NCBI GenBank assembly: GCA_017538685.1
Contig: JAFYIK010000025.1
Span: 1 to 9,429 of the forward strand
Origin: Bacteroidales bacterium
GTDB lineage: Bacteria > Bacteroidota > Bacteroidia > Bacteroidales > UBA932
Reading direction: 5' to 3'
DNA: 9,429 nt
Shown here piece by piece: positions 1-9,429 of this stretch. The translations under genes were made by a program, and so were the position numbers. The notes under the pieces were generated by a model. That model was not told where the DNA came from. It worked only from the letters and a program-made list of their open reading frames with translations, and made no database searches. Within the stretch, counting starts at the first letter, position 1, and each line of letters starts with the position of its first letter.

Positions 1-489
1 CACGTCAAGCCGGGCAAGGGCCCCGCTTTCGTGAAGACCAAACTCCGCAACCTGGAGAACGGCCGCATCCTGGAGAACACCTTCACCGCAGGCGCCAAGA
101 TCGAGACCATCGAGGTCGAGCGCCGTCCTTACCAGTTCCTCTACGACGACGGTGAGGCATTCAACTTTATGCACGAAGAGACTTACGAGCAGATCACTCT
201 GCCCCACGACGTTGTGGAGAATTCCGACCTTATGAAGGAAGGACAGCACGTCGAGATGATGTTCGTTACCGGAGACGAAGAGCGCTGCCTCACCTGCGAA
301 CTCCCGACTTACGTGACCCTCGAGGTTACTTATTCCGAGCCCGCAGTCAAGGGTAATACCGCCACTACCTCCGCTCTCAAGGAAGTCACCCTCGAGACCG
401 GCGCCAAGATTATGGTTCCTCTCTTCATCGAGCAGGGCGACAAGATCACCGTGAACACCACCGACCGCACCTACGGTCAGAGAGTCTAA
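1..489 (+). CDS. efp: Translation elongation factor P, 5' end missing
   Basis: EF-P binds ribosomes stalled at consecutive prolines and promotes peptide-bond formation from between the P and E sites. The gene enters the window already open in frame 1, and 162 residues remain of a family usually about 185-190 long, so roughly 25-30 N-terminal residues lie upstream. The first visible residues, HVKPGKGPAF, are the tip of the domain I loop. The lysine of PGKG (codon at 16-18) aligns with E. coli Lys34, the residue modified in many bacteria; because it is lysine, the arginine-rhamnosylated (EarP) type is unlikely. The two OB-fold domains follow, with family landmarks such as FNFMHEETYEQ, a TLEV...G(N)TA stretch, TGAKIMVPLFIEQGDKI and the terminal YGQRV. 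The stop is TAA, and rlmH begins five bases later, suggesting co-transcription. Identity is secure; only the 5' end and promoter are unseen. Confidence 0.97.
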   Translation, partial: HVKPGKGPAFVKTKLRNLENGRILENTFTAGAKIETIEVERRPYQFLYDDGEAFNFMHEETYEQITLPHDVVENSDLMKEGQHVEMMFVTGDEERCLTCELPTYVTLEVTYSEPAVKGNTATTSALKEVTLETGAKIMVPLFIEQGDKITVNTTDRTYGQRV

Positions 490-494
490 GACGG

Positions 495-965
495 TTGCGG
501 GTTTCGCTGCTGACAGTCGGTAAGACCGACATTAAGTGGGTATCTGAAGGCCTGGAAGTGTATTCTTCCAGGCTTCAGCACTATATACCCTTCGAGGTCA
601 GGGAAATTCCCGAGCTCAAAAACGTGTCGGCCCTCTCGAAGGAGCAGATCAAGACTTCCGAGGGAAAGCTCATACTGAAAGCAGTGAAAGACTCCGACGA
701 ACTCATCCTCCTGGACGAGCGCGGAAAGGAATTCCGGTCGGTGGAATTCTCCGACTGGCTTGGGCGCAAGTTCCAGCAGGGCCGCGACCTCGTTTTCGTC
801 ATCGGCGGGGCATACGGCTTCAGCCCTGAAGTTTATCATAGGGCGAACGGGATGATCTCCCTCTCGAAGATGACTTTTTCGCACCAGATGGTGCGCACGA
901 TTTTTGTTGAACAGCTATACCGCGCTCTCACCATCCTGAAAGGGGAGTCGTATCACCACGAATGA
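495..965 (+). CDS. rlmH: 23S rRNA (pseudouridine-1915-N3)-methyltransferase RlmH
   Basis: This SPOUT-class enzyme uses S-adenosylmethionine to methylate pseudouridine 1915 in helix 69 of 23S rRNA. The product has 156 residues, against 155 in E. coli. The knotted C-terminal half carries the expected landmarks: LDERGKEF, the glycine-rich cofactor loop VIGGAYGFSP (about residues 100-109), LSKMTFSHQMVR, EQLYRA and the characteristic terminal YHHE. The start is TTG at 495. It is preferred because MRVSLLTVGKTD matches the family N-terminus and no in-frame ATG occurs until about residue 114, inside the core fold. No clear Shine-Dalgarno is present, as is usual in Bacteroidota. The gene follows efp by five bases and its TGA overlaps the ATG of the kinase gene (ATGA), so translation of the two is probably coupled. 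Confidence 0.96.
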   Translation: MRVSLLTVGKTDIKWVSEGLEVYSSRLQHYIPFEVREIPELKNVSALSKEQIKTSEGKLILKAVKDSDELILLDERGKEFRSVEFSDWLGRKFQQGRDLVFVIGGAYGFSPEVYHRANGMISLSKMTFSHQMVRTIFVEQLYRALTILKGESYHHE

Positions 966-3900
966 AAGTCAGTCGCAAACTTCTATCGGCCATTTTCATA
1001 GGCGCGGCAGTGCTGCTGTTCGCCATCTCGCTTTTCACCCCGGAGGCCAAGGGGGATACCAAACGCGCGGCCCGCAGGGTCGAGGCTGTCCTGAGCCACA
1101 GGCTGGAAACGCTCGACTCCTTCGCCGAGAAGGCCTTCGAAGGCTCGTCCGAGCAGTGGATGGACCTTGGAAAGCTGCCGGCGGATATGGTCGTCTACCG
1201 CTATGTCAGCGACCGCCTTCAGTCGTGGACTAACCAGTTCCCGGTCAGTAACGACGACATAGTCCGAAGGACCTACGTCACGCGCTACCGTCGCCGTGGC
1301 ATCATCCAGACCCCGTTCCTGGACCTTAATTCATATTACACCTATATTAAGCTCAGCCCGACGGCGAGCTATCTGGTGAAGCGGGTGGACCGCGGTCTGG
1401 TGACTGTGGTCGTGGGCTTGAAGCTGGATGGAAACGAGAGGCTCCTGCTGGGCGACGGCTACTCCATCCGCAGCCTGCATACCCCCGACGGCACTGGCGT
1501 CACATACGCCGGTCAGCCCGTGTTCAAGGTGGTCTACGAGTCGCTGCCGGTGCGCAGCAAGCTCCCGACGCACCTGGTCTGGATCGCGTTCGCGCTGTTC
1601 GCCGTGGGCATCATTATGCGCCTGAAGAGCTCTCCCAGCGTGCGCGGGTCGCTCGCGTCCATAGGTCTGCTGCTCCTGTCCACCGTCGCGCTGGCGAAAT
1701 GGTTCCCGATTACGGAGGGCGAGCTGAGTCAGATTTCGGTCATCCTCGTGATCAACCTGATCACGTTTATGATATCGCTGTGCCTGTACCTCTGCCGCGA
1801 AAGCATTTGGGCGGGGTTCAAGAGCCGTGTCGGCAGAATTGTCGCCGGCATCGCTGACGTCGTGGCCATCCTCGGCATCTTCGCGTTCTCTTATATAGAG
1901 CTGTTCAAGGTCTTCGTCTACACGCACATAAGCCTGGATCTTACGAAGCTCGACCTGCTGAGCTGGGAATCGGCCGCCGTGATGAGCACTTTCGTGCTGA
2001 TGCTGGTTTCCACTATGCTGCTGGCCGTGCTGCTTATGCCGGCGGTGACCCGCAACGCCCGGAAGGTGAACATCTTCTCCGTGCCAGGAAGGGTGATAGG
2101 CTCGCTCGCGCTGGCGCTTTATCTGGTGCTGGTGACGACCTCGATGGGCTTCGAGAGGGAGCAGATGGTGGCTTCGTCGTGGGCGGAGAACCTGGCAAAC
2201 GACCGCGACAACGCGGTGGAGGAGCAGCTGAAGAGGGCGGAGAACCAGATTGCCTCAGACGAGGTGCTCGGCCGCGCTTCGGGCTCGGAAGACAATGCCC
2301 AGATCGCACGTGAGCGCATTATCGACAACTATCTTTTCAGGGTTCTCTCTGACTACGACGTAAGGGTGCAGATAGGCGGCGACTCGGATGCCCTCGGACT
2401 CGAATCCGGCACCCGCATCGACCAGAATTCCCGCTTCTTCTACGCGCCGCTTTCCGGCCAGAGAAGCCGCTATGTGGGCGTGTTCCAGTACTATGTGGAG
2501 GAGCAGGGCCAGAACACTATTTATGTCAGCATCGAGCCCAAGTCGGGCGATGCAGGGCGTTCGCTTTCGTCTGTCCTCGGTCTGGGAAACAAGGCCGACG
2601 AGATTCCCTGGAGATATTCTTACGCAAAGTATAAGGGCCGCGACAGGCAGTACCTGAAAGGCTCTTACGCATATCCTACCCGCCTGACTGAAGAAAAGCT
2701 TGCCGGTTTCCGCTCGCTTCAGGAGACCGATTATGTGTCCGGCGGTTACCTGCACTTCGTGAACAAGGTTTCCGAGGACGAAATAATCATCATCTCCCGC
2801 CAGTACAAGAACGTGGATTCGAACCTGCTGGCGCTCGCTATGGTGACCCTCGTATTTTTCCTCTTCGCCAGCATTTTCTCGGGCAAGAGCTCGCGGGCGC
2901 CGCTGCCACCGAACTCATTCAAGAAGACCATCACCATCCTGACCACGGTCTCCCTGACTGTCACTATGGCGGTGCTCGCCACCTTCAGCGTCACCTTCGT
3001 CTTCGGCCGCAACGAGGCCAACGCCCGGACTATGATGTCGGACAAGACCAACTCCATCCGCACTATGCTCCAGGCCGGGCTTCGCAGTTACAGCTCGACC
3101 GACGCTCTGTTCTCGCGTGAGACCCTGGCGCTCATCCGCCGCATTTCGGACAACACCGGCTCGGACATCTCCATCTTCCGCCCGGACGGCCGTATCCTTA
3201 TGTCCACCTCTCCTGAGGTCTTCGAAAAGATGGTTCTCGGCAGCCGCCTGAACGAGACGGCGTACTACCATATAATGTATCTCAGCGAGGGACATTTCAT
3301 CCAGCGCGAGAAATACGGTTCACGCTGGATCTACACTATGTACGCTCCGGTGATGGGCGCGGACGGAAGCATAGTCGCTATCTTCTCGTCGCCTTATATG
3401 GAACGCAGCTACGACTTCCAGCTCGACGCTGTGACGCACACTATCAGCATCCTGATAGTTTTCGTGATTCTGCTTCTGCTCTCGCTGGCGCTGATGTCCT
3501 ATGCGGTAGACAGGACCTTCAGGCCCATCTCTGAAATGAGCCGCAAGATGGAGGCCGGCGGAGTGGACCGTCTGGAATATATCTCCTACGACCGTCAGGA
3601 CGAAATTTCCTCGCTGGTGCAGTCGTATAACCGTATGGTCACCGATCTTACCGCCTCCACCAAGGCGCTGGCCCAGGCCGAGCGCGACAAGGCCTGGAGC
3701 GAGATGGCGCGCAACGTGGCCCACGAAATCAAGAATCCTCTGACGCCTATGCGCCTGCAGATTCAACGCATCCAGCGCCTGAAGGCCAACGGCGACCCCA
3801 GCTGGCAGACCAAGTTCGACGATATGGCCACCATCCTGCTGGACCATATCGACGTGCTGACCGAGACGGCGAACCAGTTCTCCGATTTCGCAAAGCTCTA

Positions 3901-4354
3901 TTCCGAGGAGCCGGTGGAGATTAAACTCGACGAACTATTGAAGGACGAAGTGGATATGTACGGCGCCCGTCCCGGCGTGGACTTCGAGTACCTCGGCCTG
4001 CCCGGCGTGGTGATCCTCGGTCCCCGTCCTCAACTCGTGCGCGTGTTCGTGAACATCCTCAACAACGCCGTTCAGGCCTGCGAAGGCAAGCCGGACGCGA
4101 AAGTGCTCGTGTCTTTGCGCAACGGCACCGATCCGGGATTCTACGAAATAGTCTTCGAAGACAACGGCCCCGGCGTGGACGAAGAGCACCTCTTCAAACT
4201 CTTCACCCCGAAGTTTACCACCAAGACCGGCGGCAGCGGCCTTGGCCTCAGCATCTGCAAGAGCATCCTGGAGCGCTGCGGCGCCGCCATCGCCTACTCG
4301 CGCAGCTTCAAGCTCGGCGGCGCCTGCTTCACCATCCGGTATCCGAAGGACTGA
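962..4354 (+). CDS. Large multi-pass NtrY-like sensor histidine kinase
   Basis: A 1130-residue membrane histidine kinase. Hydrophobic segments are visible near residues 7-25, 203-220, 230-247, 259-278, 293-320, 336-361, 378-397, 622-640, 657-682 and 827-849. Two long polar regions, about 400-620 and 683-826, probably lie outside the membrane as sensor domains. A HAMP-like linker (about 850-905) leads to the H-box AHEIKNPLTP, where His921 is the predicted phosphorylation site; this wording of the motif is typical of NtrY-type kinases. The ATP-binding domain has an N-box (NILNNA, Asn1035), a G1 box (EDNGPG, 1066-1071) and a G2 box (GGSGLGLS, 1090-1097), so the catalytic residues look intact. 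There is no receiver or output domain, and no response regulator gene in the window. The ATG overlaps the rlmH stop. The kinase assignment is firm; the signal, the partner and the exact topology are not known. The NtrY comparison is by motif only and does not imply nitrogen control. Confidence 0.93.
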   Translation: MKVSRKLLSAIFIGAAVLLFAISLFTPEAKGDTKRAARRVEAVLSHRLETLDSFAEKAFEGSSEQWMDLGKLPADMVVYRYVSDRLQSWTNQFPVSNDDIVRRTYVTRYRRRGIIQTPFLDLNSYYTYIKLSPTASYLVKRVDRGLVTVVVGLKLDGNERLLLGDGYSIRSLHTPDGTGVTYAGQPVFKVVYESLPVRSKLPTHLVWIAFALFAVGIIMRLKSSPSVRGSLASIGLLLLSTVALAKWFPITEGELSQISVILVINLITFMISLCLYLCRESIWAGFKSRVGRIVAGIADVVAILGIFAFSYIELFKVFVYTHISLDLTKLDLLSWESAAVMSTFVLMLVSTMLLAVLLMPAVTRNARKVNIFSVPGRVIGSLALALYLVLVTTSMGFEREQMVASSWAENLANDRDNAVEEQLKRAENQIASDEVLGRASGSEDNAQIARERIIDNYLFRVLSDYDVRVQIGGDSDALGLESGTRIDQNSRFFYAPLSGQRSRYVGVFQYYVEEQGQNTIYVSIEPKSGDAGRSLSSVLGLGNKADEIPWRYSYAKYKGRDRQYLKGSYAYPTRLTEEKLAGFRSLQETDYVSGGYLHFVNKVSEDEIIIISRQYKNVDSNLLALAMVTLVFFLFASIFSGKSSRAPLPPNSFKKTITILTTVSLTVTMAVLATFSVTFVFGRNEANARTMMSDKTNSIRTMLQAGLRSYSSTDALFSRETLALIRRISDNTGSDISIFRPDGRILMSTSPEVFEKMVLGSRLNETAYYHIMYLSEGHFIQREKYGSRWIYTMYAPVMGADGSIVAIFSSPYMERSYDFQLDAVTHTISILIVFVILLLLSLALMSYAVDRTFRPISEMSRKMEAGGVDRLEYISYDRQDEISSLVQSYNRMVTDLTASTKALAQAERDKAWSEMARNVAHEIKNPLTPMRLQIQRIQRLKANGDPSWQTKFDDMATILLDHIDVLTETANQFSDFAKLYSEEPVEIKLDELLKDEVDMYGARPGVDFEYLGLPGVVILGPRPQLVRVFVNILNNAVQACEGKPDAKVLVSLRNGTDPGFYEIVFEDNGPGVDEEHLFKLFTPKFTTKTGGSGLGLSICKSILERCGAAIAYSRSFKLGGACFTIRYPKD

Positions 4355-4359
4355 TACTG

Positions 4360-4391
4360 CGAAACTTAGTCATTTTTAATGCTAAGCTTCG
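4360..4391 (+). terminator. Imperfect hairpin after the kinase gene, possible terminator
   Basis: Six bases past the kinase stop, CGAAACTTAG (4360-4369) pairs with CTAAGCTTCG (4382-4391) with one A-C mismatch. The intervening bases add CATT/AATG pairs around a TTT loop, leaving one bulged T at 4370. The result is about 13 pairs. There is no T-run after it on either strand, so it is not a classical intrinsic terminator. Its position, between a finished operon and the next promoter, favours a terminator or a 3'-end stabilising role. Confidence 0.4.
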
Positions 4392-4407
4392 AACCGGAGA
4401 CAAACGC

Positions 4408-4423
4408 TAGCAAATTTTTGCTA
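4408..4423. promoter_or_regulatory. Perfect 7-2-7 palindrome overlapping the engB promoter
   Basis: TAGCAAA-TT-TTTGCTA is a perfect inverted repeat with seven-base arms and a two-base centre. Its last two bases are the first two of the promoter element at 4422. An operator for a dimeric regulator placed here would cover the core promoter. No regulator gene is nearby. Because the arms are AT-rich, chance is a real alternative. Confidence 0.35.
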
Positions 4424-4429
4424 TATTTG
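4422..4429 (+). promoter_or_regulatory. -7 promoter element (TATATTTG) for the engB operon
   Basis: TATATTTG matches all fixed positions of the Bacteroidota primary-sigma -7 element TAnnTTTG. I see no convincing -33 TTG at the usual distance. Transcription should start a few bases downstream, near 4433-4436. That would put a GTG at 4429 within the promoter and leave the ATG at 4447 behind a leader of about 10-15 bases. It would drive engB, prs, the small membrane protein gene and der. Confidence 0.6.
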
Positions 4430-4446
4430 TGACGGTTAGGGTCGAT

Positions 4447-5043
4447 ATGAAAATTAGCAGCGCAAAATTTGCCGGAAGCAGCACCAGAGTGGCTGGAAAG
4501 CCGCAGAGGAAGCTGCCGGAATTTGCGTTTATCGGCAGGAGTAACGTAGGCAAGAGCAGCCTCATCAATATGCTCTGCCGGAACAGTCGCCTGGCGATGA
4601 CTTCAAGCACTCCGGGAAAGACAAAACTCGTCAATCATTTTCTCATCAATGACCAGTGGTATCTGGTGGACCTTCCCGGATACGGCTATGCCAGGATGGG
4701 GCAGAAAGGCCGCGACGAATTGAAGACGGTCATCAATGACTATATCCTTGGCAGCGAAGAACTTGTGATGCTTTTCGTGCTGGTGGACAGCCGTCACGAC
4801 ATAACGAAAATAGACCAGGATTTCATCCGCGAACTTGGCGAAAACGGGATACCGTTCGGAATCATTTTCACAAAAGGCGACAAATCCGGCCCGAACGTGC
4901 TTAAAGCGCAGATTGAAAAGGACAAGCAGATCCTTTCCCAAGAATGGGAAGAGATGCCGCCTATGTTCGAAAGTTCCGCTCAATCGGGCGCGGGGCGAGA
5001 AGAGATACTCGATTATATAGACAATATACTGAAATCTTTATAA
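4447..5043 (+). CDS. engB: Ribosome biogenesis GTP-binding protein EngB/YsxC (YihA)
   Basis: EngB is an essential small GTPase needed for assembly of the 50S subunit. From ATG 4447 it has 198 residues, a normal length. The GTPase motifs are complete: G1 GRSNVGKS (30-37), switch-region TPGKT (55-59), G3 DLPGYG (75-80), G4 TKGD (142-145) and G5 SSA (176-178). An in-frame GTG at 4429 would add six residues. I reject it because it lies in the predicted -7 element and because MKISSAKF matches the usual family N-terminus (short strand beginning M-x-I-x-x-A-x-F). The first ~20 codons use more A-rich and AGA/AGG codons than the neighbouring genes, common near starts. prs begins four bases after the stop, so the two share a transcript. 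Confidence 0.96.
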   Translation: MKISSAKFAGSSTRVAGKPQRKLPEFAFIGRSNVGKSSLINMLCRNSRLAMTSSTPGKTKLVNHFLINDQWYLVDLPGYGYARMGQKGRDELKTVINDYILGSEELVMLFVLVDSRHDITKIDQDFIRELGENGIPFGIIFTKGDKSGPNVLKAQIEKDKQILSQEWEEMPPMFESSAQSGAGREEILDYIDNILKSL

Positions 5044-5047
5044 CCCT

Positions 5048-6022
5048 ATGCAACACAATCACAGAATGGAGTTGTTTGCGTGCGATGCCTCGAGGGACTT
5101 CGCGTGCAGAGTCGTTGAGGAGTTGAACAAAAACACACGCGAAGACTTTGAAGGCCCGTATCATATCGGGGATATGTCGGTCACGCGTTTCAGCGACGGT
5201 GAGTTCCAGCCCCAATACAATGAGAGCGTGCGTGGCGCCTCAGTCTACATCATCCAGTCTACGATACCGCCGGCAGACAATCTGATGGAGCTGCTGCTCG
5301 CTATCGATGCCGCGAAGCGCGCCTCCGCCGACACCGTGGTTGCAGTCATCCCTTATTTCGGCTGGGCCAGGCAGGACCGCAAGGACCGTCCGCGTGTCGC
5401 CATCGGCGCGAAGCTGGTCGCTAACCTTCTGACCGCGGCCGGCGCCGACCGTGTGATGACCTGCGATCTGCACGCTGACCAGATCCAGGGCTTCTTCGAC
5501 ATCCCGGTGGACCACGTTTCCGGTTCGTGGGTGTTCCTACCTATGCTCCGCCAGATGAATATCGAGGACCTTTCGATAGCGGCTCCGGATATGGGCGGCG
5601 CAAAGAGGGCGCATCTTTACGCGAAGGCGCTCGGCACCCCGATGGTCATCTGCCATAAAACCCGTGAAAGGGCGAATGTGGTCGGCAGCATCACCGCCAT
5701 CGGCGATGTGGAGGGAAAGAACATAGTGATTATCGACGATATGATCGACACCGCCGGCACCCTCTGCAAGGTGGCCGACGTGCTTATGTCTATGGGCGCG
5801 AAGAGCGTGCGAGCCTGCGCGACCCACGGTATGCTCAGCGGCGAAGCGGTGCAGCGCATCCACGATTCTTCGCTCAACGAGGTGTTCATCACGGACACCA
5901 TCCCGCACCCCGAACTCGCCAATGATCCGAAGATCAGGATAGTGTCTATGGCGGCCGTGTTCGCTTCCATCATAGACAAGGTCTACAACTACGAACCCAT
6001 CAGCCCCGAATTCGACAAGTAA
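5048..6022 (+). CDS. prs: Ribose-phosphate pyrophosphokinase (PRPP synthetase)
   Basis: Transfers pyrophosphate from ATP to ribose 5-phosphate to make PRPP, the precursor of purines, pyrimidines, NAD, histidine and tryptophan. The 324-residue product is close to the usual ~315. Visible landmarks are RFSDGEF with NESVRG near the N-terminus, IIQST, the catalytic flexible loop PYFGWARQDRKDRPR (102-116), the metal/ATP site DLHADQIQGFFD (from Asp140, with His142), KTRERANV, and the PRPP-binding loop DDMIDTAGTL (230-239). The sequence reads as the Bacteroidota type, with GWARQDRKDRPR. About six extra residues (around EDFEGPY) precede the first conserved block. The start could be ATG 5048 or ATG 5066 (MELFACDASRD); the latter gives an N-terminus closer to the family. 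The TAA shares one base with the ATG of the next gene. Confidence 0.97.
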   Translation: MQHNHRMELFACDASRDFACRVVEELNKNTREDFEGPYHIGDMSVTRFSDGEFQPQYNESVRGASVYIIQSTIPPADNLMELLLAIDAAKRASADTVVAVIPYFGWARQDRKDRPRVAIGAKLVANLLTAAGADRVMTCDLHADQIQGFFDIPVDHVSGSWVFLPMLRQMNIEDLSIAAPDMGGAKRAHLYAKALGTPMVICHKTRERANVVGSITAIGDVEGKNIVIIDDMIDTAGTLCKVADVLMSMGAKSVRACATHGMLSGEAVQRIHDSSLNEVFITDTIPHPELANDPKIRIVSMAAVFASIIDKVYNYEPISPEFDK

Positions 6023-6291
6023 TGACCACCTTCATAGCAGCGGCGATAGTGCTGGGCCTTGGCATCCTCGGGATGTGCGTCTTCCTTCTGAAGAAGGACG
6101 GCGAGTTTCCGAAGTACGACGTGGGCTCCAATCCCGAGATGCAAAAGCGAGGGATACGCTGCTTCAAGGATGTGGACGCCGAACTGCACGACCGCCCGGT
6201 CAAGTGCGACGGCAATTACTCCGACGCTTGCAAGAGCTGTCAGTTATACACCAGTCATCCCCGACCTGATCGGGGGTCTTTACCCCAATAG
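6022..6291 (+). CDS. Small Cys-rich single-pass membrane protein, function unknown
   Basis: An 89-residue product with one N-terminal hydrophobic segment (about residues 3-23) followed by KKDGEFPKYDVGSNPEMQKRG and a short polar domain. That domain holds cysteines at 47, 62, 70 and 73; the last three form C-x7-C-x2-C, which could bind a metal or form disulphides. Small proteins with a membrane anchor, a KxGxFP..xxxN-P/K motif and a conserved Cys are familiar from Bacteroidota genomes, but I cannot name a family with a known role. The ATG overlaps the prs stop (TAATG) and der starts three bases after its TAG, so it is embedded in the operon and probably translated. The last residues, from about His79 to Ser86, are encoded by a repeat-like palindrome, so the tail may not be ancestral. 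Confidence 0.75.
   Translation: MTTFIAAAIVLGLGILGMCVFLLKKDGEFPKYDVGSNPEMQKRGIRCFKDVDAELHDRPVKCDGNYSDACKSCQLYTSHPRPDRGSLPQ
6257..6277. repeat. REP-like GC-rich palindrome just upstream of der
   Basis: CCCCGA (6259-6264) and TCGGGG (6270-6275) pair around a five-base loop. One G-T and one A-T pair extend the stem to eight. It sits in a context (TCATCCCCGACCTGATCGGGG) resembling short palindromes that are dispersed through many bacterial genomes. It overlaps the end of the small membrane protein gene and ends 17 bases before the der ATG. TCTTTA follows, too short for a good U-tract, so attenuation before der is possible but weak. Whether it is repeated in this genome cannot be seen here. Confidence 0.55.
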
Positions 6292-6294
6292 CAT

Positions 6295-7602
6295 ATGAGT
6301 CTAGTCGCCATAGTCGGCCGGCCGAATGTCGGCAAAAGTACCCTGTTCAACCGTCTGGTGGGAATGCGCCAGGCGATAGTAGACGACACCGCGGGCGTTA
6401 CCCGCGACCGCCACTACGGCCGCTGCGAATGGTGCGGCCGCGAGTTCTCGGTCGTGGACACCGGCGGTTACACCACCAACTCCGAGGACGTTTTCGAAAG
6501 CGCCATCCGCGAACAGGTGCAGATTGCCATCAATGAGGCCGACGTGGTCCTGTTTATGGTGGAGGCCGCGACGGGCGTTACCGACTACGACGCAGAGATC
6601 GCGGACGTGCTGCGTCGGGCAAAGAAGCCCGTCGTGCTCTGCGTGAACAAGGTGGACAGCGGCGAAAAGATGTTCGACGCCTACCAGTTCTATTCGCTGG
6701 GACTGGGAGAAATCTTTAGCATTTCGGCTGCGAACGGCTCCGGCACCGGCGACCTGCTTGACGAAATAGTCAAGGTCCTGCCCGATGAACCGGAGGTTGA
6801 GGACCCGCATAAAGACTTGCCGCGCATCGCCATAGTCGGCAAGCCGAACGTCGGCAAATCTTCCATCACCAACGCGCTGCTCGGCGAGGAACGCAATATC
6901 GTGACTCCCGTCGCCGGCACGACCCGCGACTCCATCGAGACCTATTACAATAAGTTCGGCCACGAATTTATGCTGGTGGACACCGCCGGCATACGCCGTA
7001 AAGCCAAGGTCCACGAAGACCTTGAGTTCTATTCGGTTATGCGTTCGATCCGCGCTATCGAACACTCTGACGTGTGCGTTATGATGATCGACGCCACCAC
7101 CGGAATGGAGGCGCAGGATATGAATATCTTCAACCTTATCCTGAAGAACCGCAAGGGCTGCGTGCTGGTCGTGAACAAATGGGACCTCTTCATCAAGGAC
7201 AGCAATACCCTCCGCGACTACGAAAAATCTCTCCGCGAGCGTATCGCTCCGTTCACGGATGTGCCTGTCATCTTCACCTCGGTACTGAAGATGCAACGCA
7301 TCAGCGACGTGCTGGACGCCGTGGCTATGGTCTACGACAATTATTCCCGTAAGATCCCGACCGCAAAACTCAACGAAGAACTTCTCCCCATCATCGAGGA
7401 GACCCCTCCGCCGAGCACGAAGGGCAAGTACATCAAGATCAAGTACATCACCCAGCTCCCGACGCGTTTCCCGTCCTTCGCATTCTTCTGCAACCTCCCG
7501 CAGTACATCAAGGACCCGTACAAACGCTTCCTCGAGAACCAGCTCCGCAGCCGCTTCAACCTCACCGGCTGCCCCATCCAGATTTTCTGCCGGCAGAAAT
7601 AG
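6295..7602 (+). CDS. der: Ribosome assembly GTPase Der (EngA)
   Basis: Der is an essential GTPase with two tandem G domains that acts late in 50S assembly. The 435-residue length is normal. Domain 1 has GRPNVGKST (8-16), DTGG (55-58) and NKVD (118-121); domain 2 has GKPNVGKSS (182-190), DTAG (229-232) and NKWD (294-297). Between them is a short acidic linker ([13 protein letters not shown]). The C-terminal KH-like domain (from about 350) ends in the usual form: [21 protein letters not shown], then [10 protein letters not shown] and the G-x-P-I final strand. The ATG at 6295 is three bases after the preceding stop and 17 bases after the palindrome. It is the last gene of the engB group before a 313-base gap. 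Confidence 0.98.
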
Positions 7603-7624
7603 CCAGCCCTGCACTACGCCCCTT

Positions 7625-7662
7625 AATTTGGTGAGTAAAATAGCGGTTTTACTCACCAAATT
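7625..7662. repeat. Perfect 16-bp inverted repeat downstream of der
   Basis: AATTTGGTGAGTAAAA (7625-7640) is followed by the loop TAGCGG and its exact complement TTTTACTCACCAAATT (7647-7662). All 16 pairs match, and a T-G pair could extend either end. It starts 22 bases after the der stop. It lacks a following T-run, so a terminator role is unproven, although a hairpin this stable could protect the mRNA 3' end. Confidence 0.85.
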
Positions 7663-7680
7663 GCTTTACCGGTGTCGTTT

Positions 7681-7708
7681 CGTGTGAAAAACGGCAGTTT
7701 TACACACG
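7681..7708. repeat. Second palindrome related to the one at 7625
   Basis: CGTGTG (7681-7686) pairs with CACACG (7703-7708); after one A-A mismatch, AAAAC pairs with GTTTT around a GGCA loop. This gives 11 pairs. The core (GTG, A-run, CGG, TTTTAC, CAC) follows the same plan as the palindrome 18 bases upstream, as if both came from one family of repeats. Confidence 0.65.
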
Positions 7709-7711
7709 GAC

Positions 7712-7868
7712 GGGTGACGCGCGGCGCCGAAATGAGGGTTTTTGGCGCCGATTGGGGTCGCGGAAGGGTGATTTGGCGCTTTTTTGGGCGTTTTTGGCGC
7801 CGGTTGGGTGGTGAGTGGGTGATTTGGCGCCGAAATGTGGGTTTTTGGCGCGAGGGATCGGGAAGTGA
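7712..7868. repeat. Three tandem copies of a ~52-bp GGCGCC-containing repeat
   Basis: The copies run about 7712-7765, 7766-7816 and 7817-7868. Each starts with GGGTGA and holds two GGCGC boxes 21 bases apart. The box positions are 7723/7744, 7775/7796 and 7826/7847, so the period is 51-52 bases throughout. Copies 1 and 3 agree at 25 of 27 positions across the box-to-box core (7723-7749 against 7826-7852). Copies 2 and 3 share GGGTGATTTGGCGC exactly. The outer parts have diverged. Spacers are not unique sequences and there is no short conserved repeat of CRISPR type. Confidence 0.8.
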
Positions 7869-7901
7869 GGGCGGGGGAGGAGAACGTGAGGAAAATTTTC
7901 G

Positions 7902-7909
7902 TATCTTTG
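7902..7909 (+). promoter_or_regulatory. -7 promoter element (TATCTTTG) for xseA
   Basis: TATCTTTG fits the Bacteroidota element TAnnTTTG at every fixed position. The xseA ATG begins only six bases after its last base, so the predicted transcript has almost no leader. No clear -33 TTG is present at the usual spacing; that area is the purine-rich stretch. Confidence 0.55.
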
Positions 7910-7915
7910 AGTGTT

Positions 7916-9019
7916 ATGGAGTACGTGGATCTGCTGACACTTCAAAATACGATCAGGGAGGGGCTGACGGAGCTCTTTCCGGAGAGCGTGTGGGTGAAGG
8001 CGGAGATCGCGGCGGTGCAGACGAGAATGAACGGGCATTGCTATCTGGATCTGGTCCAGAGCGAGGGCGGCCGGCAGCTCGCGAAGGTCAAAGCCGTGAT
8101 CTGGAAATCGAAATTCCCGATGCTCCGAGCTTTCTTTAAAGACGCGACAGGAAAGGACCTTGAAGTGGGGCAACAGATACTCGTGCTGGCGGAGGTGAAT
8201 TACTCCGAACTCTATGGGCTGAGCCTCATAATAGACGACATCAATCCCGAATTCACCCTTGGCGATGCCGAGCTGAAAAAGCAGCAGACTATCAAGATGC
8301 TGCAGGCGGAAGGGATGATGGACCTTCAGCAGAAGCTGGAGCTCCCCGCGATTCCCTACAGGCTGGCCGTCATCAGCGCTCCGGATGCTGCCGGTTTCGG
8401 GGATTTCAAGCGCCATCTGACGGAAAACCAGTACGGATTCTATTTCGAAGTGGATCTCTATCCTGCGGCTATGCAGGGCGAAAAGGCCCCGGAAAGCATC
8501 GCGGACGCGCTCGGCGCGGTCGAAGCGGCGGGTGGATACGACGCAGCGCTGATCCTGCGCGGCGGCGGCTCGAACCTGGACCTCGCCTGCTTCGACGACT
8601 ATGGCCTCGCGCTCGCGATCGCCCAGTGCCCGATACCCGTCTTCACCGCCATAGGCCACGACAAAGATTATCACGTTGCCGATATGGTCGCGTACCGTTT
8701 CGTGAAGACCCCGACGGCGCTGGCGGATGAGTTCATCGATATGTATTCCGCGGAAGATGAGCGGATCGGAAGTCTCGGGGCGCGGCTGGCGCGGGCTTTC
8801 GCGGCGAAGATTCAGCAGCGCCTCTCGGCGCTCGATGAATTGGACCGCCGCATCAAGGCCGCCGACCCACGCGCCGTCCTCAGCCGCGGTTACACCCTCG
8901 CCGTGGACGCAAAAGGCCGCGTGATCAAATCAATCAAAAACGTCGCAAAAGGTGACACCATCGACATAATGTTATCCGACGGAACCATAACAGCAACAAT
9001 AGAAAAAATAAAAACGTAG
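7916..9019 (+). CDS. xseA: Exodeoxyribonuclease VII large subunit, compact form
   Basis: XseA is the catalytic subunit of exonuclease VII, which with XseB degrades single-stranded DNA from both ends. From ATG 7916 it has 367 residues, against 456 in E. coli. The N-terminal OB fold begins at LLTLQNTIREGL and includes VWVKAEIA and HCYLDL. The nuclease core follows, with LILRGGGSNLDLACFDD (Arg215, Gly216-218) and AIGHDKD (His248, then Asp249 and Asp251), matching the family's RGGGS and GHE/D signatures. The coiled-coil between the core and the C-terminal RGYTLA strand region (from Arg324) is only about 50 residues, much shorter than in E. coli, and accounts for the missing length. The reading frame extends upstream to 7835, but those codons lie in the repeat and promoter. 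The last ~12 codons are strikingly A-rich. xseB follows after the fold-back element. Confidence 0.93.
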   Translation: MEYVDLLTLQNTIREGLTELFPESVWVKAEIAAVQTRMNGHCYLDLVQSEGGRQLAKVKAVIWKSKFPMLRAFFKDATGKDLEVGQQILVLAEVNYSELYGLSLIIDDINPEFTLGDAELKKQQTIKMLQAEGMMDLQQKLELPAIPYRLAVISAPDAAGFGDFKRHLTENQYGFYFEVDLYPAAMQGEKAPESIADALGAVEAAGGYDAALILRGGGSNLDLACFDDYGLALAIAQCPIPVFTAIGHDKDYHVADMVAYRFVKTPTALADEFIDMYSAEDERIGSLGARLARAFAAKIQQRLSALDELDRRIKAADPRAVLSRGYTLAVDAKGRVIKSIKNVAKGDTIDIMLSDGTITATIEKIKT

Positions 9020-9130
9020 ATGAGGGGATCACCCCCGAGACCTGTGGCCGCCCGTGGCCACATGAACGGGAGGGGCCCACGAAGTGGGAGGGATGAGCGA
9101 AGCGAAGGTTTTCGGGGGTGACCCCTCATC
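9019..9130. repeat. Fold-back (MITE/REP-like) element between xseA and xseB
   Basis: The ends are near-perfect inverted repeats: GATGAGGGGATCACCCCCGA (9019-9038) against the complement of 9112-9130, with every base paired except one extra A at 9028. With a G-T pair and one bulge the stem continues to about 9043/9106. Inside are two more hairpins: TGTGGCC/GGCCACA (9043-9049, 9056-9062) and CCCAC/GTGGG (9076-9080, 9084-9088). GGGAGGG and GCGAA motifs recur in the loop region. No protein is encoded and no clear target-site duplication flanks it. The first base is the last of the xseA stop codon, and it ends three to nine bases before the possible xseB starts. The form suggests a dispersed, non-autonomous element, or a structured intercistronic RNA. 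Confidence 0.7.
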
Positions 9131-9139
9131 GAAGTGCCA

Positions 9140-9331
9140 ATGAATATGGAAGAAAATTTCGATTACGCGAAGGCGATAGGGCGGTTGGAGGAGATCGCAA
9201 GGAAGGTGGAGGATCCGCAGACGGGGCTGGACGAGATGGACAAGTATCTCGCCGAGTCGGAGGAGCTGATTGCCAAGTGCAGGGAATACCTGCGCACGGC
9301 GCGCGAGAGACTCGCGGAGTTGGACGCATAA
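9140..9331 (+). CDS. xseB: Exodeoxyribonuclease VII small subunit
   Basis: XseB is the small helical subunit of exonuclease VII. From ATG 9140 it has 63 residues, somewhat shorter than the 80 of E. coli. The family pattern is clear: FDYAKAIGRLEEIARKVED, then GLDEMDKYLAESEELIAKCREYL and ARERLAEL, forming the two-helix hairpin. Three starts are possible, GTG 9134, ATG 9140 and ATG 9146; the two ATGs are favoured, and 9146 gives MEENFDYAKA. No Shine-Dalgarno is visible. Unusually, the gene is separated from xseA by a ~112-base fold-back element rather than by the usual short gap or overlap. Confidence 0.92.
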   Translation: MNMEENFDYAKAIGRLEEIARKVEDPQTGLDEMDKYLAESEELIAKCREYLRTARERLAELDA

Positions 9332-9360
9332 CGACGAACACAGATAATAACACTAACCAT

Positions 9361-9429
9361 ATGCAGAAGATTTACAAATCGGACCCGTGGCTGGAGCCGT
9401 GGAAAGCCAAGATCGAGGCGAGACACACC
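9361..9429 (+). CDS. glgB: 1,4-alpha-glucan branching enzyme, N-terminal fragment (probable)
   Basis: Only 23 codons are visible before the window ends. MQKIYKSDPWLEPWKAKIEARH fits the start of Bacteroidota glycogen branching enzymes, which open with a short basic stretch, then (N/S)DPWLEP, then a helix with I-x-x-R-H/Y. These enzymes form alpha-1,6 branches in glycogen. The preceding 29 bases are A-rich (ATAATAACACTAACCAT) without a Shine-Dalgarno or a TAnnTTTG element, so expression from an upstream promoter is likely. The call rests on a short stretch remembered from the family and should be read as probable. Confidence 0.6.
   Translation, partial: MQKIYKSDPWLEPWKAKIEARHT

Follow-up and report, generated by a model that had tools for sequence, protein, structure and literature searches.

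The tetranucleotide CATG has been almost completely purged from a 9,429-nucleotide stretch of a Bacteroidales bacterium (assembly GCA_017538685.1, contig JAFYIK010000025.1, positions 1 to 9,429; the whole stretch is hereafter called the window). We infer that the lineage of this bacterium has, or had, a system cutting at this word, and the purge very probably reflects selection imposed by a Type II restriction-modification (R-M) system that cuts CATG and is still present or was recently lost. When all 256 tetramers of the window were ranked against a maximal-order Markov expectation, calculated from tri- and dinucleotide counts, CATG had the lowest observed-to-expected ratio (O/E) of all, with one copy observed and 32.5 expected (O/E 0.03, z -7.4). 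The exact count agrees with an earlier, sequence-only reading of the same DNA, which had located a single CATG inside a fold-back element and none in the genes, and had estimated by eye about 35 expected copies and a GC content near 57% (57.1% when calculated). The coding DNA holds no CATG against about 31 expected, which gives a 95% upper bound on O/E of 0.097. The second-lowest tetramer was CTAG (2 observed, 10.3 expected), a word that is often rare across bacteria, and GATC stood at 41 against 54 expected. ACTG was present 12 times, with 27.8 expected.

Codon choice was examined at the positions where CATG could form, using the eight hand-made gene models on which the counts for the window rest. 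C-ending codons were never used before a Met ATG (0/58), where 32.9 would be expected from the usage of each amino acid elsewhere (probability of zero, 5e-25) and 35.0 from a control made up of codons preceding other A-starting codons (2e-32). Codon choice before Met therefore differs from that in other contexts, as the sequence-only reading had proposed. Its examples held as well, with the five Thr-Met pairs of the sensor histidine kinase all written ACT and Pro before Met (n = 5) written CCT three times and CCG twice, never CCC. It had also counted nine Asp-Met pairs, all of them GAT; every such pair is indeed GAT, but there are ten (10/10), and the example positions given for them were off by 1 to 32 bases (correctly 1184, 3821, 5171, and 8681). 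His before G was CAC in 15 cases and CAT in none, compared with 14 CAC and 13 CAT elsewhere (p = 0.001). The third phase, NCA before TG, is uninformative in the window, as only about one case was expected (0/14, against 44/604 elsewhere; p = 0.6). Avoidance is visible in the two phases that are informative here, NNC before ATG and CAT before G.

A kinase-based scan of 84,980 species genomes gave six relatives of the window (L001 to L006), all titled Bacteroidales and two of them with the rumen named in the title. Their CATG O/E was 0.54, 0.36, 0.57, 1.12, 0.67, and 0.96, respectively, so that avoidance varies by degrees among close relatives (0.36-1.12) and is not shared uniformly across the broader lineage. 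CTAG was also low in all six. None of the relatives’ aligned CATG sites was retained in the window (0/17, 0/10, 0/13, 0/42, 0/9, and 0/41 from L001 to L006, the site sets overlapping), while the control words GATC, TGCA, GTAC, TCGA, and GGCC were retained at 29-71% from L001, L004, and L006. The 42 sites of L004 had most often become TATG (24/42), followed by CACG, CGTG, and GATG. Where the amino acid was conserved from L004 to the window, the wobble C was kept in 0/26 cases before ATG versus 188/244 before other A (p = 1e-15); the same comparison of L004 with L006 gave 21/27 and 191/256. In unfiltered mechanical open reading frames (ORFs) of L004 and L006, codons before ATG ended in C 55 times and in T 22 times, and dropping genes with three or more CATG left only six genes for these two. 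Among the CATG sites common to L004 and L006, 21 are absent in both the window and L001 and seven are absent in the window only, so the purge was probably already under way when the window and L001 diverged, and it continued in the line of the window; for some of the 21 sites, a gain in the line of L004-L006 is an alternative.

Two of the relatives, L001 and L002, are also partly depleted at His before G, with CAT in 6/59 and 4/35 cases versus 70/150 and 60/107 elsewhere (mechanical ORFs). Such partial depletion is expected of relaxed lineages and would suit a narrower form of the R-M explanation, in which the avoidance was left behind by a system that the lineage of the window no longer has. 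Avoidance in the absence of a system, taken as the mark of one since lost, is described in the relevant passages of PMC4687349. With a coding O/E of at most 0.097, however, the loss would have to be recent on the time scale of the divergence from L001 (0.54), and we consider this form possible but somewhat unlikely.

Selection on CATG itself could be followed in all three codon phases in G181, the congener with the lowest CATG content, in which 423 genes were called mechanically (long ORFs, some of them false); the main counts drop the 12 of these 423 that hold three or more CATG. Twofold codons before ATG ended in C seven times and in T 1235 times (7/1242), compared with 11004 C and 2537 T in the control (81% C). 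His was CAT before G in 4/760 cases (control 998/2194, 45%), and NCA stood before TG in 7/856 (control 2502/6076, 41%). With all genes kept, the values for NNC before ATG, CAT before G, and NCA before TG were 23/1285, 16/792, and 22/892. The odds of a wobble C preceding Met are lowered about 700-fold (log ratio 6.6, or 5.4 without the dropping of genes). The mechanical method applied to the window found 26 His-before-G pairs, against 15 from the hand models. The base altered in G181 depends on the phase, being C, T, or A, each at its own wobble position, and because all three phases are purged in this way no single base-specific mutation explains the purge.

The codon phases of the window and G181 strongly support selection on the word rather than base composition, and they do not support a single base-specific mutational bias against CATG, which the sequence-only reading had allowed for. 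A bias such as deamination of methylated C in CATG would agree with TATG being the commonest replacement and with the T share of non-C bases at fourfold codons before ATG in G181 (0.51 versus 0.33 elsewhere). It is nevertheless extremely unlikely, and C deamination was rejected, since CAT before G was removed through T-to-C changes and NCA before TG through replacement of the A, both impossible for that process. The fourfold T excess fits removal of sites through the commonest mutation, or an added C-to-T bias; the two are inseparable here.

Across the genus, the avoidance is patchy. The proxy GCATGC, counted in 250 genomes, has a distribution with a low mode, and 33/250 genomes fall under 60 per Mb, a cut placed by eye at a shallow valley (low genomes hereafter). 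Stretches from 20 of these 33 had a CATG O/E of 0.00-0.15 in 18 genomes, the others being G007 (0.42) and G025 (0.38). Those 18 hold 82 CATG against 1117 expected in coding DNA and 5 against 15 in intergenic DNA, so that intergenic DNA is low too. When stretches were pooled for 23 of the 33, O/E was at most 0.32 in 20 and reached 0.38 in G211, 0.42 in G007, and 0.80 in G180. On a 62-row kinase tree, a quick tree with long branches at G060 and G040, the low label (11 low rows including the window, from a hand list) needs at least nine changes, a number given without a shuffled control. The near neighbours G052 and G028 are low (2 observed, 23 expected) and intermediate (15 and 28), respectively; their kinase loci are 90.3% identical, and 11/13 CATG of G028 are altered in G052. 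Other words are scarce in some congeners. GATC O/E was 0.02 in G048 (L089) and 0.06 in G289 (L090), both without a match to D12 methyltransferases and the former also without an N6_N4 match, and in G060 (L100) AGCT and ACGT stood at 0.06 and 0.12 within 7 kb.

A Type II R-M system of NlaIII-like specificity, carried now or until recently, could produce this pattern. Each CATG would carry a slight risk at times when methylation falls behind; mutations that abolish a site where this costs least, at a synonymous position, would become fixed, and those creating one would be removed. Such systems would come and go within the genus, leaving close species that range from almost CATG-free to normal, and newly arrived DNA, still having CATG, would stand out.

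Candidates for such a system were found among the congeners. Genome G221 carries, side by side, genes for an N6_N4-type methyltransferase (MTase1), an ICEA-family nuclease (PF05315, E 4e-117), and a D12 methyltransferase (MTase2), and G158 has the same gene order, with MTase2 cut off by the contig end. ICEA was found in 2/250 genomes, these two, both GCATGC-low (chance P = 0.017), and close, high-scoring MTase1 homologues in 3/250, all GCATGC-low (chance P = 0.002); 11 further genomes with only short, weak MTase1 matches were left out of the count. All carriers lie within the low group of 33, and in the few genomes having an ICEA/NlaIII-like cassette, putatively specific for CATG, the cassette coincides with the avoidance. 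Of the CATG-specific system that the sequence-only reading had supposed for this lineage, the selection stands, and an R-M system is its best explanation given the cassettes of low congeners; the trait is not lineage-wide, and the enzyme search it called for leaves most low genomes without an identified system.

In G189 the nuclease slot of the cassette holds a different protein (L106 5503-6654), and a remnant of that protein lies between ICEA and MTase2 in G221 (L091 about 12873-13182), beside the full-length ICEA gene. The family of this putative nuclease is large (2662 database matches), and the protein itself was found in 2/250 genomes, in one as fragments only. Its predicted fold matches PH1033-like domains, which we take to be those named EVE, the restriction enzyme VcaM4I, and, weakly, EndoMS (E 0.012), and it may be a modification-reading nuclease. 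Given this fold and its occurrence in only two genomes, it is at most a candidate CATG cutter.

Several observations weigh against a CATG-cutting R-M system as the cause. The cassette accounts for only 3/33 low genomes, those with close MTase1 homologues, and there was no ICEA match in G001 and G006 and no D12 match in G001-G006. It is therefore doubtful that the lineage of the window carries this particular cassette, even though the genomes with close MTase1 are low in 3/3 cases and a 20-kb stretch of G221 has two CATG, both within the cassette. C5, N6_Mtase, and MT-A70 searches likewise found nothing in G001-G006, the MT-A70 negative being weak because no control genome was matched either. 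No methyltransferase class was common to the tested low genomes (D12, C5, N6_Mtase, Eco57I, and MT-A70, with N6_N4, PF01555, searched in 61 genomes only). G181, the lowest genome, had no D12, C5, or N6_Mtase match (PF01555 was not run on it); about 40% of it was read for a methyltransferase motif, and the few motif-bearing ORFs looked, by eye, unlike R-M enzymes. The metagenome-assembled genomes (MAGs) may be incomplete. The proxy also errs, as G180 is placed in the low group despite a CATG O/E of 0.80, and G070, G128, G155, and G053, which fall outside the group, show 0.14-0.29 in short stretches. Finally, CTAG sites were mostly not retained in the window either (0/3 from L004 and 0/2 from L006, yet 2/2 from L001).

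The single methyltransferase families were distributed as follows. D12 was present in 6/33 low genomes versus 45/217 others, and C5 methyltransferases in only 4/20 low versus 3/26 other genomes tested, a further point against deamination. N6_Mtase (PF02384) was found in 9/22 low versus 0/20 other genomes tested, and its matches resemble in length and profile what we take to be Type I or IIG enzymes. Sites of these types are seldom avoided according to the passages of PMC4687349 that deal with them, and the family was set aside as the cause. R-M systems as a whole may be more numerous in low genomes. Weak Eco57I matches, on inspection, read like proteins that are presumably PrmC or TrmN6. Pairs of DpnII type were taken for GATC systems and not considered further, and 4/17 of their carriers are GCATGC-low. 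As a yardstick, 5/8 kinase loci with a GATC O/E below 0.45 lie in genomes with a D12 gene that we take, by score and length, to be of DpnM type; detection of cognate systems is thus incomplete here, yet better than for CATG.

The lack of a common methyltransferase class among the tested low genomes would also be compatible with a nuclease that acts without protective methylation and is tolerated because its site is missing from the genome. G181, however, has up to 25 CATG sharing a contig with purged DNA, sites that such an active nuclease should cut (chimerism being a caveat), and we regard this explanation as very unlikely. For most CATG-free species of the genus we can speculate, without giving it much weight, that an undescribed CATG modification-and-cutting system, with a modifying enzyme outside the searched methyltransferase families or on a mobile element lost from the MAG bins, holds hundreds of kb nearly CATG-free, CATG then telling newly acquired DNA from native.

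Some accessory stretches of G181 and G052 avoid CATG less strongly. The 61 stretches of G181 examined (603 kb) hold 96 CATG against 2572 expected; 68/96 lie in six clusters over 18.8 kb (five or more CATG with gaps under 1.5 kb, a rule set after the data were seen), and O/E outside them is 0.011. The wider CATG-bearing regions of this genome (Table 1) appear to hold polysaccharide loci of the SusC/SusD type, a TnpA-TnpB pair resembling that of IS200/IS605, and fimbria-like genes. Chimeric contigs or misbinning may be an alternative source of these stretches. A stretch of G052 with presumably Type IIG-like genes has 20 CATG in 7.8 kb and then two in 12 kb, and two more stretches around methyltransferase matches contain 38 CATG within 20 kb and 24 within 15.6 kb; these raised the pooled O/E of G052 to 0.32.

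Most of the eight gene models of the window are ordinary housekeeping genes (Table 1). The gene names RlmH, together with an rRNA role of its product, and EngB/YihA are our presumptive assignments. The fold-back element that carries the lone CATG has a predicted RNA fold of -59 kcal/mol (9020-9135). Over its 87-base core it shares 97.7% identity with a copy that lies inverted at the corresponding junction of L001 (18942-19028), compared with 85.8% for the aligned DNA of the window and L001, and the outer arms differ between the two. No match was found in L002, L003, L004, and L006, and the element therefore looks recently moved or converted; it possibly represents a small mobile or invertible element family of the genus. 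Partial copies were observed in L023 and L020.

Table 1. Features of the window and CATG-dense loci of G181, with coordinates in the stretch concerned.
Feature	Position	Strand	Remarks
Elongation factor P	31..489	+	Family match, N-terminal domain partly matched; no CATG
RlmH-type SPOUT methyltransferase	495..965	+	PF02590; not a DNA methyltransferase
Sensor histidine kinase, 1130 aa	962..4354	+	Family match; query for relatives
EngB/YihA-type GTPase	4429..5043	+	Family match
Ribose-phosphate pyrophosphokinase	5048..6022	+	Family match
Small ORF	6022..6291	+	Without Pfam family
Der/EngA GTPase	6295..7602	+	Family match
Exonuclease VII large subunit (XseA)	7913..9019	+	Family match; start uncertain
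Fold-back (terminal inverted repeat) element	9020..9129	none	Between xseA and next gene; carries lone CATG
Lone CATG of the window	9061..9064	none	Inside fold-back element
Accessory-like locus, G181 L223	9154-17197		CATG-dense
Accessory-like locus, G181 L240	6937-12096		CATG-dense
Accessory-like locus, G181 L261	2566-8034		CATG-dense
Accessory-like locus, G181 L271			CATG-dense
Accessory-like locus, G181 L254	16269-17712		CATG-dense

Within the genus, a parallel in kind is offered by GATC systems, presumably of DpnII type, with D12 and N6_N4 pairs that GATC depletion tends to accompany, with exceptions such as G021; the word avoided is a different one, GATC standing at 41/54 in the window. Host avoidance of Type II R-M sites, including traces of lost systems, has been published (Rusinov et al. 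2015, PMC4687349), and the present case resembles what is described in the parts of that paper on such sites, in that a short palindrome is under-represented genome-wide, at times without a cognate system while relatives have one. It differs in degree, as Kr values of 0.78-1.23 (the same sort of ratio as O/E) are counted as normal there, compared with 0.03 in the window and 0.011 in G181 outside the clusters, and in changing between near neighbours. The ICEA-family nuclease of G221 and G158, predicted from its family and flanked by two methyltransferase genes, recalls NlaIII and the IceA1-HpyIM system of Helicobacter pylori, in which, by the account in PMC2749054, the iceA1 product is 52% identical to NlaIII and HpyIM has the specificity CATG, the latter according to a reference title. 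The flanking methyltransferases here, unlike in those systems, are of two different classes, and CATG is not avoided in H. pylori, with an O/E of 1.25 against the G+C expectation in the figures of PMC3849833. A literature search, judged mostly by titles, found no paper on a CATG methylation motif in Bacteroidales and no title on CATG avoidance there.

The CATG purge is a new, extreme case of a known effect, patchy between close relatives. Recently acquired loci, such as polysaccharide-utilisation-like clusters or an insertion sequence, may be recognisable by eye in purged genomes from their runs of CATG. The genus is a natural experiment, comprising many species that have nearly lost one word and many that have not, among them near neighbours about 10% apart at one locus, and this makes the strength and tempo of self-restriction measurable.

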